A stretch of DNA of 64,000 bases from Hymenobacter sp. 5317J-9 (GTDB lineage Bacteria; Bacteroidota; Bacteroidia; Cytophagales; Hymenobacteraceae), in NCBI RefSeq assembly GCF_022921075.1, contig NZ_CP095050.1:124001-188000 (forward strand). The letters are read 5' to 3'. The notes beneath the pieces were generated by a model that had not been told where the DNA came from, made no database searches, and saw nothing but the letters and a program-made list of their open reading frames with translations. This document shows positions 36,418-43,870 of the stretch, piece by piece. A program made the position numbers and the translations under genes. Positions within the stretch are counted from its first letter, which is position 1. Each line of letters opens with the position of its first letter.

Positions 36418-38082
<1,665 letters not shown>

Positions 38083-38116
38083 TTAGTATTCCTACATTAG
38101 CAACAGCATTGTCAAA

Positions 38117-38148
38117 ACGGCCCGCCGGAATTGCTTCCGGCGGGCCGT
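38117..38148 (-). terminator. 14-bp perfect hairpin between ettA and the accessory cluster
   Basis: ACGGCCCGCCGGAA-TTGC-TTCCGGCGGGCCGT. T4 follows on the minus strand, so it mainly ends the accessory operon. Confidence 0.85.
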
Positions 38149-38193
38149 TCCGATTAATTGAATACAGGCTTTCCAATGTGGCTAACACATGTT

Positions 38194-39585
38194 TTAGCGC
38201 GACGCAGCACCGCTGGCGGCGCCGGAACCTAAGGCAGCGAACAACTTGGCGGCAGCCCTTAAGTCGAGACTAACCCCTACATACCAATCAGACTGGGTTT
38301 CGGTACGCGTAGGAACTGTACTTACGCCGGCTGGCAACACGGACCCAATACCTAGTCCCGAACTGGGGTCTACCACCGTAACGCGGCCAACATGACAACC
38401 GGCTGTTAGGTAGAATAAGCTGCCGAAGACGTCGTAGGTAGCCCCCACGTAGGCATTTTTGAGGGTATTTTCGACCGATAACCCGAAAGTGGGGTAGAGG
38501 CGCTGGTACAACGGAACGCCCGTTCTCCGCTTTTCGACGTCGCGGCGCCCCCAGATGTAATGAGTATAAGAGAAAACGTAGTGCAATTGGGGGGCTTGTT
38601 CGGTCACCGTGATGACGTTGTCGGCGCCTTTGGCTACAGTGCCAAACGAGCGGTCCGTTAGCCAAGAGCAAACCGGACCAAAAGAAAGCGCGCCCTGGTA
38701 GAGCGGGTGAACGCCGAAATCAAAGTCGCTGAGCGGAGTGCTGACGCCGTTGGTGCCCAACCGCGACAATTGCACCTGCCCCCTGCCCGGCGCGAAATCA
38801 GCCAATTCAACCCTAGCCAACCCGCAGTCGGACACTTTGGCCGCCTTCCTGATAAAGGCATCGGTGTTCGTGCCTTCGCCGACCACCCGGTACACGCCCA
38901 CATCCCGGAAAGCGGACTTGCGTTGCACCAACAGCTTATCTAATTCGGTCCGCGGCCCGCGCACTACTATCACAATTTTATCATCCTCGTCTATCACGTC
39001 GCCCGGGCGATACAACACATTGCCGGTGTGTGACACAATAAAGGTAGCCGTGTTGTTCGCGTCATCGTACAGCGCTTTTGCGAAAGCCACTTTCTCCGCA
39101 TCGGTAGCCGGGTCGCCGGCGGCCACGTCGCAGTCCGCTCCTCCTGTTTCGGGAGGAGCAACGTTTATTTCTACGGATGCTTTTGCATCCGTTGGTGTTC
39201 CGTTATCGAAAAATAGTAAAGTGGCCTGACGGGCAGGCATTGGGTCTATGGTGGCTCCGCTCAACTCAAACCGCGCCGTAGCGCCAGTGGCACCGCTCGC
39301 TGGAGCCAACTGAACCACCATGGGGGAGCCACCTCCCGCCGGTGCACTGCCTTTTAATTGCGCCGTGAGTTTATCGCAATTCAGCCCCTCGCAGGTTACT
39401 TCCAGCACCTGCTTGTCGGTGTTGCCTATTTTGTTACGCGCCGGGTCAAAGCCTGCGTTGTTCAGGAACTTGTAGCTATCCCCCGTTTTCTTAATGGTTG
39501 TTTTCCATACCACCTGCGCCTTTACCGGGCTTGCGCCAACCAAAAGAGGGGCCAAGCACAGGAAAATCTTGTACGTTTTTTTCAT
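38194..39585 (-). CDS. Hypothetical secreted or outer-membrane protein of the accessory cluster
   Basis: 463 residues, signal peptide MKKTYKIFLCLAPLLVGASPVKAQ. The N-terminal region (about 25-135) looks like a beta-sandwich (VVWKTTIKKTGDSYKFL). The middle is mixed. The C-terminal region (about 330-450) alternates hydrophobic and polar residues like outer-membrane strands (NAYVGATYDVFGSLFYLTAG, DWYVGVSLDL), which suggests a barrel or OM-associated fold. Codon use appears less GC-skewed than the neighbours. It is the last gene of the protease-amidase cluster. No homologue recognised. Confidence 0.7.
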   Translation of the reverse strand: MKKTYKIFLCLAPLLVGASPVKAQVVWKTTIKKTGDSYKFLNNAGFDPARNKIGNTDKQVLEVTCEGLNCDKLTAQLKGSAPAGGGSPMVVQLAPASGATGATARFELSGATIDPMPARQATLLFFDNGTPTDAKASVEINVAPPETGGADCDVAAGDPATDAEKVAFAKALYDDANNTATFIVSHTGNVLYRPGDVIDEDDKIVIVVRGPRTELDKLLVQRKSAFRDVGVYRVVGEGTNTDAFIRKAAKVSDCGLARVELADFAPGRGQVQLSRLGTNGVSTPLSDFDFGVHPLYQGALSFGPVCSWLTDRSFGTVAKGADNVITVTEQAPQLHYVFSYTHYIWGRRDVEKRRTGVPLYQRLYPTFGLSVENTLKNAYVGATYDVFGSLFYLTAGCHVGRVTVVDPSSGLGIGSVLPAGVSTVPTRTETQSDWYVGVSLDLRAAAKLFAALGSGAASGAASR

Positions 39586-39599
39586 AGTAAAAGCCAGAA

Positions 39600-40696
39600 T
39601 TAATGAGTTGGTATCTGACACGCAAGCCGGTCGAGGACTAAGCTGATGGGCGTAAAAACCTGCAAATCGGAACCGTCGCTGCCCCCACTAAAAGCCCCAG
39701 AACCAAGTTTTGCCGGTCAAGTATGACTGCCCCCGAATCGCCTGGGCTGGCCTGAATGCGCACCACAATTGCATCAATTAGGTCTTCCTGGGGCAGGTAG
39801 TTGTGCAGCGACTGTATCATTCCGAGCTGGTACCCCGACACAGCCCCGTACATCCACACGGGCATGCCCCGGTCACTGTCTACTACGGGTCGCCAACCAT
39901 TAACCCGGCCGATTTCCGGGATGTAGTCAATCATGGTATCCGGGTCGGCTACTTCGATGGCGGCAGCATCGGTTTCGTGCATGGTTCCGCGCAGAAACCG
40001 GCCCACCAGTACCGAAGTACTGGTTTGGGGCCATGGCGCAAACAGCTCTAGTCCCGGAGGGGTGTCATCCCCCACCACATGTTGAGCCGTTAGGGCAACC
40101 ATGCTGGCCGAGGCGTTGTCTTGGGCCAATACGCCCAACGTGCCTCGGCTATTGCCTTGCCCTAGGCTGCTGCCGCCACTGGTGTTGCGTCGAAACTTGC
40201 CAAACTCCACTACGTCAACGCCCACCGCGTCACCATTTGCAGCGCGCAATGTGGTGGGTATCGCCAGCCGGCTGCCCAGTTCCGCATCCATGAGTTTGCG
40301 TTCCACATATACCGTGATTGTTTTTTCCGCCTGCCAAATACCGGACTTTACCCGGTGTCCCAAGCCAATACCTATCACGCCCGGCCAGTTCGTCAACGTT
40401 TCCTGATGCTCGACCAGAACACGGTCCAGACGCGCCCATTCTCGGTTCTGCAGCCTTTTTTTCGGATGGCCTGTAGTGCGCCGGGCCAGTTGCATTCGCC
40501 CGGCTTCACTCAATTGCCGCGCATAGTCCACGGCTTGTGCTGCTTCAAGTGCCGAACCGATTTGTGCACGCACTGCTTGGGTACCTGCTTCAATAAAGGT
40601 TTGAGCTAATGCCGTCAACTCCGTTGGCGCCAGTTTTTTACGCAAGCTTTTCGCCAACCTTTCAATCATGCGATCTATTGAAGGAGTTTCCATCAT
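39600..40696 (-). pseudogene. Trypsin-like serine protease with one frameshift near the C-terminus
   Basis: The catalytic triad is visible: His206 in ALTAQHVV, Asp243 in ETDAAAIEV and Ser321 in SPGDSGAV. Residues 1-80 are helical; 105-165 (GVIGIGLG ... KTITVYVERKL ... VGVDVVEFGKF) resembles the domain that precedes bacterial Nal1-like proteases. As read, it stops at 39638 (352 residues) with an odd tail. Adding one G to the run of five at 39682-39686 (five C on the plus strand) restores VGGSDGSDLQVFTPISL and a stop at 39600, as a trypsin fold needs. There is no signal peptide, so it may act in the cytoplasm. Confidence 0.85.
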
Positions 40697-40762
40697 TAAC
40701 CAGTTGGTTTTCAGTTTGCAGATTTAGTAAAGCACTGCCACTAATCCGGCCCGCAGCGGCAA

Positions 40763-41575
40763 TTAGCGCACGGCCCCGCTCCAGCAAAAGAGCCCGCCGG
40801 GGCTGAGCTCGTACCAGTCGTCGTTGCCGCTCACGGCTTCGCCCACCACGCGGCCCTGCACCGCCAGCACCGCCCCGGCCGGCACCTGCCGGGCCACCGG
40901 CGCGCGTCGAAACGGTTCGCCCTGCCGGATGTTGACCAGGCCCTGGGCGGCTACGCTGCTGGGCAGCGGCGGCAAGCCGGGCAGCGTCCCGCCAATGCTC
41001 TGAAAGATGGCCGTGACGTCGGCCAACAGCTGCGGAAACGTGCGGCGGCTATGCGACAAGCCCGCCACCGGGTCGAACTTTCGGCCGGGGTCGAGAAAGC
41101 AATGGCCGGTGATGTCGCGCCGCGGGTCGAGCTGAAAATGGACGCAGAGGTAGGCCAGCAGCCACACGTAGCGCCGGTAGGCTTCGTCGGCATTGATGGC
41201 CCCGCCGTAGCAATACTCCACCCCAATGGCCGCATCGTTGGAGTTACAGCCGTAGAGGATGTTGTCTTCGCGCCGGTCGTACAGCACATGCCAGGCTTTT
41301 TCGGGCGGGGCCGTGAGGGCCGGCACGCACTCCAGAATCTGGTGGTCGTCGACGAATAAATGGGCCGAAGCGGGTGGCTTAATCAGGTAGGTGTCGCGGT
41401 AGTAGCGCACATTGCCGGCAGCCGTCGAGCCCGGATTACCGGTGTCGTGGGCCACCAGAAAGCGCGCCCGCAACGGGTCGGGGCCGGGAGCCGTGAGGGC
41501 GAAGCCACGACGGCGGGTGCCTAAGGGCAGGTAAGCGGGCAAAATGTCAAATTCGCGGTCGGGGTACTGTTTCAT
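40763..41575 (-). CDS. N-acetylmuramoyl-L-alanine amidase (Amidase_2) with a C-terminal SH3-like domain
   Basis: 270 residues. Probable zinc ligands are His43 (VAHDTGNP), His158 (TGHCFLDPG) and Asp168, with Lys166 nearby (GRKFDP). The last 55 residues (LVNIRQGEPFRRAPVARQVP...) look like an SH3-type wall-binding domain. There is no signal peptide, unusual for a resident wall enzyme and reminiscent of phage lysins, which need a holin or another route. It lies between the protease and the membrane protein in a same-strand cluster. Confidence 0.85.
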   Translation of the reverse strand: MKQYPDREFDILPAYLPLGTRRRGFALTAPGPDPLRARFLVAHDTGNPGSTAAGNVRYYRDTYLIKPPASAHLFVDDHQILECVPALTAPPEKAWHVLYDRREDNILYGCNSNDAAIGVEYCYGGAINADEAYRRYVWLLAYLCVHFQLDPRRDITGHCFLDPGRKFDPVAGLSHSRRTFPQLLADVTAIFQSIGGTLPGLPPLPSSVAAQGLVNIRQGEPFRRAPVARQVPAGAVLAVQGRVVGEAVSGNDDWYELSPGGLFCWSGAVR

Positions 41576-41607
41576 AACTCATCGTAAAAAATGGAGCAGC
41601 AACAGGT

Positions 41608-43077
41608 TTAGCCCATGGCCAGGCTGGCATCGGGGGCGCCGCCTAGGGTGCCGACGGGGGGTTGGGCTTCGTTGTCGTCGCCCTCGTCGTCGCGGCGGGT
41701 GGGGGTGCCATCGGGTAGCACCGTCGGCGCGGGTGCGGCAGGCGCCGGGGAAGCGCCCGGGGCCAGGCCGCCGTTAGCAGACGTGCCAGAGGAGCTGGCG
41801 CTGGCAGGAGTCACGTTCACGATGGTGGTGGCTCCGCCCGAACCCGCCAACGTGCGCTGCACCACCGGTCCCGCACCCACCGGTGCCCCCGGAACGCCGG
41901 CCACCTCTTTGGCCGCAGCTGCGTCGGGCGACGCAGGTTTGCTTTCCTGGTATTTGCCAAACAAAAACCCGGTCGTGCTGATGGAAATCAACCCCAGCAG
42001 GCCCTCGTCCAGGGGGGGTATGTTCCACAGCCGCCACACGTGCCGCACGAAGTACAGCCCCACCAGTAAGTTGAACAGCAGGAATTGGATGCGCGCGATG
42101 CTAAAGCGGTTTTGCTCGGCCAGGATGTCGCGCCAAAAGCCCTTGCTCACGTCGTTCACGCTGGGCCCTTCGGCGCTGGCGTTCACCTGGTCGCTGGTGA
42201 TGCCGCGGCTGAACAGGTTGCCGCCCAGGCTGATGCCCAGCAGCCCCAGCAGGCTCACGGGAATGGCCGCCAGCTCACCGGTCACGAGGTAGCACAACAG
42301 GTAAGCACTGAGAATGAGGAACGTCCAGAACACCAACTGCACTTTGCTGAGGCTGAACGGCACCGATTCGTATTGCTTGCCAATCATGTCGGTACGGTCC
42401 ATATCCTGGTCGTTCAGGTTGCCGCGGAGGATGTCGCTTCGCACCAGGTTGCTGTGCCAGCACAGGTAAAGCAACACGGCCAGCAGCGCACCCACCAGAA
42501 AAAGGCCCAGGTTGAGTTCGTTGCGGCGCACCAGCTCCAGGTAGATGTTGTGGTCCTGCGGAAAGGCTTCGCCCAATTGACCGTTTTCGAACCCGATGCC
42601 AATGTGGGCCTTGTGGTCCAGCTTGCTCCGCACCCGGTAAAAAAGCTGCCAGATGGGCTCAGTACTAGGGTTGCGGAGCAATAAGAAGCGTACCCTGGCC
42701 GTATCGGCGCGGTTGAGCAGGTCCACGGCTTCCGGCGCCATTGGAAAGCCTACACCGTCGATAAACAGCCGCAGCTCGGTGGGTTTGCGCTTGTATGTAT
42801 CCAGGGCTTTGGCCAGGCCGCGCACGCGCAGCACCACGTGGTCGCCCAGCTGCAGGCTGTCGCGGCGCTTGCTGGAAAGATTGTAAACGTCCGTTATCTG
42901 TACCGGGGAGGTGGTAGCGTCGGCGCCCGCCGTCTTCGCGGCCGCCGCTGCCCCAGGGGCCGCCATGCCGGCTTTGGCTTGCTTGGCAGAGTCGGCCGCC
43001 GACATTTGAGCCGCGGCTTCCCGCATTCCCGAAACGAACAGCAAAAGGATGCAGAGCAAGAAACGAGGAGCGCGCAT
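41608..43077 (-). CDS. Inner-membrane protein with a duplicated two-helix module
   Basis: 489 residues. Signal-like N-terminus (to about 24), a periplasmic beta-type domain (about 60-180), a single membrane helix (about 190-208), then two related modules at 241-291 and 325-375. Both start FS..+.Q and end LLGL..IS..G.LF, align without gaps over 51 residues and share 13 identities. An Ala/Pro/Gly-rich acidic tail follows. No named family recognised. It starts the cluster with the amidase, protease and secreted protein, so it may anchor or sense for them. Confidence 0.8.
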   Translation of the reverse strand: MRAPRFLLCILLLFVSGMREAAAQMSAADSAKQAKAGMAAPGAAAAAKTAGADATTSPVQITDVYNLSSKRRDSLQLGDHVVLRVRGLAKALDTYKRKPTELRLFIDGVGFPMAPEAVDLLNRADTARVRFLLLRNPSTEPIWQLFYRVRSKLDHKAHIGIGFENGQLGEAFPQDHNIYLELVRRNELNLGLFLVGALLAVLLYLCWHSNLVRSDILRGNLNDQDMDRTDMIGKQYESVPFSLSKVQLVFWTFLILSAYLLCYLVTGELAAIPVSLLGLLGISLGGNLFSRGITSDQVNASAEGPSVNDVSKGFWRDILAEQNRFSIARIQFLLFNLLVGLYFVRHVWRLWNIPPLDEGLLGLISISTTGFLFGKYQESKPASPDAAAAKEVAGVPGAPVGAGPVVQRTLAGSGGATTIVNVTPASASSSGTSANGGLAPGASPAPAAPAPTVLPDGTPTRRDDEGDDNEAQPPVGTLGGAPDASLAMG

Positions 43078-43240
43078 AACCAGAGCGTTAAGAATCAGAC
43101 GATGAGGAAGCTGCTTTCGCGAAAAAGCATTTCCACCGAAGCATCAAGGGCGGCCAGGGCATATTGCCAAACCATCTTTTTGATACCCGTAAAACTCGCC
43201 TTTCTACAGCGCCTTATGCATCAGTGCCATCACTGAAGTT

Positions 43241-43870
43241 TCACGCCACCCAGCCCTCCCGCACGGCCCTTGCCGCCAGCCCCACCAGCGTGCGGGTGCC
43301 GGCCTTCTGCAGCAGGTTGCGCCGGTGGGTTTCCACCGTGCGCACGTTGATAAACAGCCGGTTGGCAATTTCTTCGTTGCAGCAATCGGCCACCACCAAG
43401 CGTAGCACCTCCATCTCGCGGCGGCTGAACCGCCCGGTAATGGCGTAGGCCGGCACCATGCGCGCTGCGGGCGCGGCGTTGCCAGGCAGTGCCGCCAGCC
43501 ACGGCGAAATGGCGGCCGCCAGTGCGTGCGGCGGCACATGGCTGGGCACAAACAAACAGGCATCGGAGTCGGCGTGCAAGGGCGCCTCGTGGGCCAAGGT
43601 GCGCGCATCGGCCAGCACCAGCAGGCGTTGCGAAGGGCGGGCCTGGCGCAGGCGGTTGAGGACGCGGGGCAGATTCAGCAGACCCGGCAATGCGCCTTCC
43701 AGCACCAGCAGGCTATAGAAATGATGGGTGGCCAGTTCTTCTGCCTGGGAGGCATCGGCAGTGAGGGTAATGGCCAACTCGGGGCATTGCTCGCGCAACA
43801 CGGCTAACAAGCCTTGCCGAAACAGTGTGGGAGCGGCCGCAACCAAGGCCGTTGGGGTAGAAACAGGCAT
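43241..43870 (-). CDS. NarL/LuxR-type regulator with a degenerate receiver
   Basis: 209 residues. The N-terminal domain has the receiver layout, but the acidic pair is replaced by AAAP (ALVAAAPTLFRQGLLAVL) and the phosphoacceptor Asp by Glu (LLVLEGALPG). The C-terminal LuxR HTH is intact (FSRREMEVLRLVVADCCNEEIANRLFINVRTVETHRRNLLQK). It probably acts without phosphorylation. The next gene on the same strand, 164 bases away, is the membrane protein of the accessory cluster, so it may control that cluster. An AT-rich stretch at about 43960-44010 lies upstream. Confidence 0.85.
   Translation of the reverse strand: MPVSTPTALVAAAPTLFRQGLLAVLREQCPELAITLTADASQAEELATHHFYSLLVLEGALPGLLNLPRVLNRLRQARPSQRLLVLADARTLAHEAPLHADSDACLFVPSHVPPHALAAAISPWLAALPGNAAPAARMVPAYAITGRFSRREMEVLRLVVADCCNEEIANRLFINVRTVETHRRNLLQKAGTRTLVGLAARAVREGWVA

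Follow-up and report, generated by a model that had tools for sequence, protein, structure and literature searches.

Signal-less endolysins that lie outside phages and are linked to inner-membrane proteins are the hallmark of the T10SS (PMC10109510, PMC10847048, PMC9527704). Those linked to holins, such as TtsA, are regarded as depending on the holin (PMC9527704). In this study, we compared a locus of Hymenobacter sp. 5317J-9 with the known non-phage cassettes ChiWXYZ of Serratia, TtsA of Salmonella Typhi and YenLC of Yersinia. As in these cassettes, an inner-membrane gene adjoins the gene of a signal-less endolysin-type hydrolase outside phages, and more secreted or lipid-acting enzymes are sometimes found beside the pair. 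However, the membrane protein is larger, carries an IPT/TIG-like domain and a duplicated two-helix module, and is no recognisable holin; neither spanins have been recognised nor a cargo established for the membrane/amidase unit. Thus, a signal-less endolysin-type peptidoglycan hydrolase outside a phage was found, but a recognisable holin gene beside it was not, and for this reason we do not claim membership of the T10SS.

Two further groups of systems were compared. The unit shares with phage lysis cassettes the endolysin families Amidase_2, GH24 and GH108, and its amidase is about 50% identical to Brevibacillus phage endolysins; it differs in that no phage genes surround it and in having its own GH24 clade tied to the membrane family. 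With T6SS wall and lipid effectors and their immunity proteins it shares signal-less amidases, lysozymes and Tle1-like lipases as partners, but here one membrane family accompanies many enzymes, and no VgrG or PAAR was noticed beside them.

Gene content of the locus

The host, which we take to be a soil-type bacterium, has a genome of 5.4 Mb. The window (the whole stretch of 64,000 nucleotides analysed) had been described in the initial annotation as holding a candidate envelope system of five head-to-tail minus-strand genes, four effector genes with gaps of about 30-70 nt and a regulator 164 nt upstream. All five ORFs were present, and this layout was confirmed, with intergenic gaps of 32, 66, 16 (52 if the secreted gene starts at ATG 39585) and 163 nt. 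The features are as follows:

43241..43870, minus strand: LuxR/NarL-type regulator with a degenerate receiver (ORF to 43915, ATG 43870)
41608..43077, minus strand: membrane protein of 489 aa, predicted to be in the inner membrane, no Pfam match
40763..41575, minus strand: Amidase_2 N-acetylmuramoyl-L-alanine amidase, endolysin-like, signal-less, with a C-terminal SH3-like domain
39638..40696, minus strand: predicted NAL1-like trypsin-fold protease, of a separate, apparently inserted module
39682..39686, minus strand: G5 run, apparent frame shift of the protease relative to the intact homologue in genome G050
38194..39585, minus strand: secreted protein with a predicted signal peptide, second gene of the protease module (ORF to 39621)

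Although real, the five genes do not make up a single system but three units, namely the LuxR gene, the membrane protein with the amidase, and the protease with the secreted protein. The closest relative, G018, encodes a membrane protein 84% identical to that of the window and has no protease. Its sequence aligned with the window at 90% over the flank, the LuxR gene, the membrane gene and the amidase; homology ended at window position 40767, beside the amidase stop, and restarted at 38082, the end of an ettA-like ABC-F gene. The GC3 of the protease and secreted genes was 0.59-0.63, whereas that of the membrane gene and the amidase was 0.80-0.83. In G050, the protease and the secreted protein were adjacent to each other, and neither the membrane protein nor the amidase accompanied them. 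Judged from these sequence comparisons, the protease and the secreted protein are a separate module, inserted at the amidase stop.

The site between LuxR and ettA (window 38083-43240) was empty in G019 (locus L174), where LuxR is directly followed by ettA. The membrane gene and the amidase, together with other genes, occupied it in G018 and both modules in the window; other cargo was found in L175 (G017) and L020 (G018). The site is therefore variable.

Two observations are consistent with the single five-gene envelope system that had been proposed: the genes of the window share a strand and are closely spaced, and in G050 the protease pair also has a LuxR gene of this subfamily, about 2.3 kb upstream. 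We nevertheless regard that system as extremely improbable: the comparisons with G018, G019 and G050 rule it out, the GC3 values and the apparently broken protease frame also argue against it, and a common transcript alone would not rescue what the genomes already contradict. Co-occurrence of protease and amidase elsewhere was likewise not borne out, since, of the 3 genomes among 204 of the family that have the protease, only the window's also has the membrane protein. What stood of the proposal is an undescribed membrane/amidase unit, linked across genera and orders and, with other wall enzymes, across phyla; the protease and the secreted protein fall outside it.

In Pfam, the protease matched Trypsin_2 and NAL1_N below the cut-off (NAL1_N 21.1 bits against 27), and a distant homologue in L161 passed Nal1_C. 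As in NAL1-like trypsin-fold proteases, the window protease has the H-D-S residues in order and a NAL1_N-like segment (108-163); it differs in its sub-threshold scores, an extra helical N-terminus and its pairing with a secreted protein. By sequence, it is probably a NAL1-like trypsin relative. Conflict proteases coupled to effector-associated domains have been described (PMC7159879); no model of such a domain matched the protease (P0002) at E up to 1 in Pfam, a library that may miss classes of these domains. At the G5 run on the minus strand (39682-39686), the other frame continues into GSDGSDLQVFTPISLVLDRL, and the G050 homologue has this kind of ending in frame. Since the alternative frame leads into a G050-like ending, the C-terminus of the window protease is probably out of frame, through either a real pseudogenising change or a sequencing or assembly error. 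The true start of the secreted protein is probably ATG 39585, which gives the signal peptide MKKTYKIFLCLAPLLVGASPVKAQ. Its C-terminal part was beta-rich by eye, it had no Pfam match, and profile comparison found no relation to the secreted neighbours at other loci.

The LuxR regulator matched GerE in Pfam (E 7e-14). Its receiver is degenerate, with AA in place of the DD pair and Glu at the phospho-Asp site. It was found in 29 of 37 Hymenobacter genomes searched, usually as one copy each, and lay mostly far from the membrane gene, which led us to reject it as a dedicated regulator. On this distribution, it is a near-core Hymenobacter gene that flanks the insertion site. It lies beside or near the membrane gene in the window's genome (G000), G018 and G031, and near the protease pair in G050; a regulatory role is therefore possible, and it may be a candidate regulator of the membrane/amidase unit.

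The membrane protein and its partner enzymes

The membrane protein had been assigned to an unnamed family with a duplicated module, and this description held. It consists of a signal sequence, a beta domain (residues 58-182), a transmembrane segment (185-208), two repeated two-helix units (243-300 and 327-379) and a disordered tail. The AlphaFold model contained a confident beta domain at 58-182 followed by five helices of transmembrane length, and it agreed with the sequence motifs (at 240-300 and 327-379) in repeating the two-helix unit. In a fold search, the beta domain was similar to Ig-like domains of the IPT/TIG kind (Z 7.6, rmsd 2.9, 92 residues), whose fold is common. The helical module alone had no clear PDB match, the best (Z 7.3 at rmsd 5.6) being noise, and for the full-length model no clear match was obtained in a viral structure library. 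No holin match was obtained in Pfam, PHROGs or NCBIfam, and PADLOC and NCBIfam scans of 76 homologues gave scattered weak matches only.

An alignment of 14 homologues was searched against 85,000 species genomes, and the best 80 of 99 loci were analysed. These 80 loci came from Bacteroidota, Burkholderiales, Acidobacteriota, Verrucomicrobiota, Ignavibacteriota and others, the named close homologues among them being from Hymenobacter. The core common to the family is the pair of two-helix repeats, with the motifs SL[AS][RK]xQ[ML]A[WF]W and GVSxHRxQ ... LxLxGISSGTYxGxK. One homologue of 681 aa (L021:8039-10084) is extended at its C-terminus by a further domain, about 100 residues long and with no Pfam match. 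The family was not found in IMG/VR viral contigs or phage records, and a phage origin of the whole unit was rejected on this basis. A plasmid search gave two distant homologues, one of them on a conjugative Rhizobium plasmid (L153:1-10411) with LysM-M23 peptidase and DUF2272 genes nearby.

The amidase matched Amidase_2 (PF01510) with 59 bits against a cut-off of 26 (E 6e-16). Residues H43, E120, H158 and D168, presumably the zinc ligands and the catalytic Glu as in the family generally, were invariant in 13 aligned sequences. Its closest relatives were Brevibacillus phage endolysins, with 49% identity over 69% of the length (the catalytic part). The amidase and the GH24 and GH108 partners matched PHROG lysis/endolysin families, and the membrane proteins matched none.

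The membrane protein was found in 15 of 204 family genomes and the amidase in 8, each time immediately behind the membrane gene (hypergeometric p 1e-10, a value that ignores kinship). In three Bacteroidales loci (L100, L104 and L109), the pair was present with nearly overlapping ORFs, and the short homologues there lacked the beta domain yet retained the amidase. Of 249 Burkholderiaceae genomes, five had the membrane protein, and each of these also had a distinct clade of GH24, a signal-less lysozyme, directly upstream. This clade scored E<1e-78 and the next best match 2e-36; 43 other genomes had weaker, ordinary GH24 matches. The neighbourhood comparison across genomes thus bore out the amidase and other wall enzymes as recurrent neighbours, and sequence comparison makes a solid case that the recurrent pairing of membrane protein and amidase is genuine. 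The pair appears to be undescribed; no description was found in the literature, and such absence is weak evidence.

Among the 138 immediate neighbours in the best 80 of 99 loci, Pfam assigned Phage_lysozyme 14 times, Amidase_2 11, T6SS_Tle1-like 6, GH108 3 and NlpC/P60 2, and a subtilase was also present. None of these enzyme families was among the 25 commonest of 115 control genes four positions away. Profile matches to amidase, GH108, GH24 or Tle1 occurred in 35 of these best 80 of 99 loci, nearly all adjacent, a count that leaves out NlpC/P60 neighbours and a LysM fusion. In the latter, a single locus (L025/L045), the membrane protein is fused to LysM and a C-terminal segment that is CHAP-like by eye. 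At the Hymenobacter daecheongensis locus (L029:6019-7671), a relative of Peptidase_M19 (membrane dipeptidase) follows the amidase and is a possible wall-related partner. In several Hymenobacter loci (L022:9883-10740, L023:10213-10950 and L031:9692-10411), a conserved, uncharacterised family of about 245 aa adjoins the membrane gene and separates it from GH108.

By N-terminal hydropathy, with start codons called mechanically, the partner enzymes appear signal-less. The absence of signal peptides from the window's amidase and protease, which the initial annotation had pointed out, was confirmed. It had also suggested that they may act from inside, as lysis effectors do; because the whole partner set shares this absence, that is a sensible reading.

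A profile of the SH3-like domain, run against all ORFs in the best 80 of 99 loci, matched only the next gene downstream of the membrane gene. The carriers in these best 80 of 99 loci were 10 amidases, 2 subtilases that carry it N-terminally (L060 and L072) and 1 stand-alone protein (L075). Since the domain is retained while the catalytic domain is swapped, it can be read as an adaptor, which in Bacteroidota probably links the enzyme with either the wall or the membrane protein. We consider this putative adaptor the most specific mechanistic clue.

In a tree of the membrane family (77 rows), the partner changed 12 times; the amidase appeared in separate places, with 5 changes, and GH24 accounted for 4. 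Thirty-eight of the 77 rows had no recognised partner nearby and were labelled 'other'; among them was a whole clade of 21, mainly from Acidobacteriota and Verrucomicrobiota. The hydrolase link therefore belongs to part of the family, and the root role of the family may be something else. In two genomes of another family (G258 and G452), the gene of another, unnamed membrane protein (L158:7596-8666 and L159:7138-8202) precedes the same SH3-amidase by 18 nt; the enzyme keeps a membrane partner there, though not one of the family studied here.

Possible modes of action of the membrane/amidase unit

The reading that we judge most likely, with a probability of 0.45, is that the membrane protein acts like a holin or as a gate for the amidase, the two forming a non-phage, bacterial-owned unit of holin/endolysin-like (T10SS-like) kind. 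The amidase would be synthesised as a signal-less cytoplasmic protein, and the inner-membrane protein would gate it and let it reach the wall, either by holin-like translocation or by triggered release through the periplasmic IPT/TIG-like domain. Cutting of the wall would then lead to regulated lysis or to the passage of other proteins. Against a holin-like role are the size of the membrane protein, larger than usual holins, its lack of detectable kin among them, the 38 partnerless rows of the tree and the amidases behind a different membrane protein. No spanin genes were noticed in the neighbourhoods by eye; Tle1-like lipases in Burkholderiales and secreted proteins at some loci could replace them.

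It is also possible, if doubtful, that the membrane protein founds a new non-phage export or gating class unrelated to known holins. Such a class would bring interchangeable signal-less enzymes (amidase, GH24, GH108, subtilase and Tle1-like lipase) to the inner membrane or through it, and in Bacteroidota the SH3-like domain would serve as a docking tag.

Among the classic families of interbacterial effectors are Tle1-like phospholipases, wall amidases and lysozymes. The hydrolase could thus be an antibacterial effector exported by another route, with the membrane protein as a broad immunity or sequestering factor whose periplasmic domain protects the producer. The match of the partner families, six T6SS_Tle1-like neighbours among them, and the predicted periplasmic beta domain fit this explanation. 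We consider it unlikely, however, since immunity is usually enzyme-specific and here a single membrane family accompanies unrelated enzymes; the short Bacteroidales homologues keep the amidase without a periplasmic domain; and the T6SS sheath gene VipA (PF05591) was absent from the window's genome, while an E. coli control was positive. A constant membrane component with variable destructive enzymes, its patchy spread (15/204 and 5/249 genomes) and the LuxR-ettA site as a variable insertion site would also suit a suicide device, in which the membrane protein, on detecting damage or an invader, would switch on a stored enzyme that kills its own cell. This is quite unlikely, as no convincing PADLOC defence-model match was obtained and no nucleotide-sensing or NTPase partner gene was seen. 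Wall recycling or remodelling by a cytoplasmic AmpD-like amidase and a muropeptide importer is very unlikely. AmpD is likewise a signal-less Amidase_2 enzyme, but the match to the AmpD equivalog model was weak and did not pass (23 bits against a cut-off of 143), phage-endolysin relatives are much closer, and the GH24 and GH108 muramidases, subtilases and lipases that are partners elsewhere do not fit.

Outside phages, it is an open question how wall hydrolases that have no signal peptide pass the inner membrane; to our knowledge, it is mainly small phage-like holins that serve this passage. The membrane family has no named model, was not found in the phage collections searched, extends over several phyla and is accompanied by interchangeable endolysins. 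It is thus a testable candidate for another solution, and a route to bacterial lysis and release systems that phage-based searches miss.
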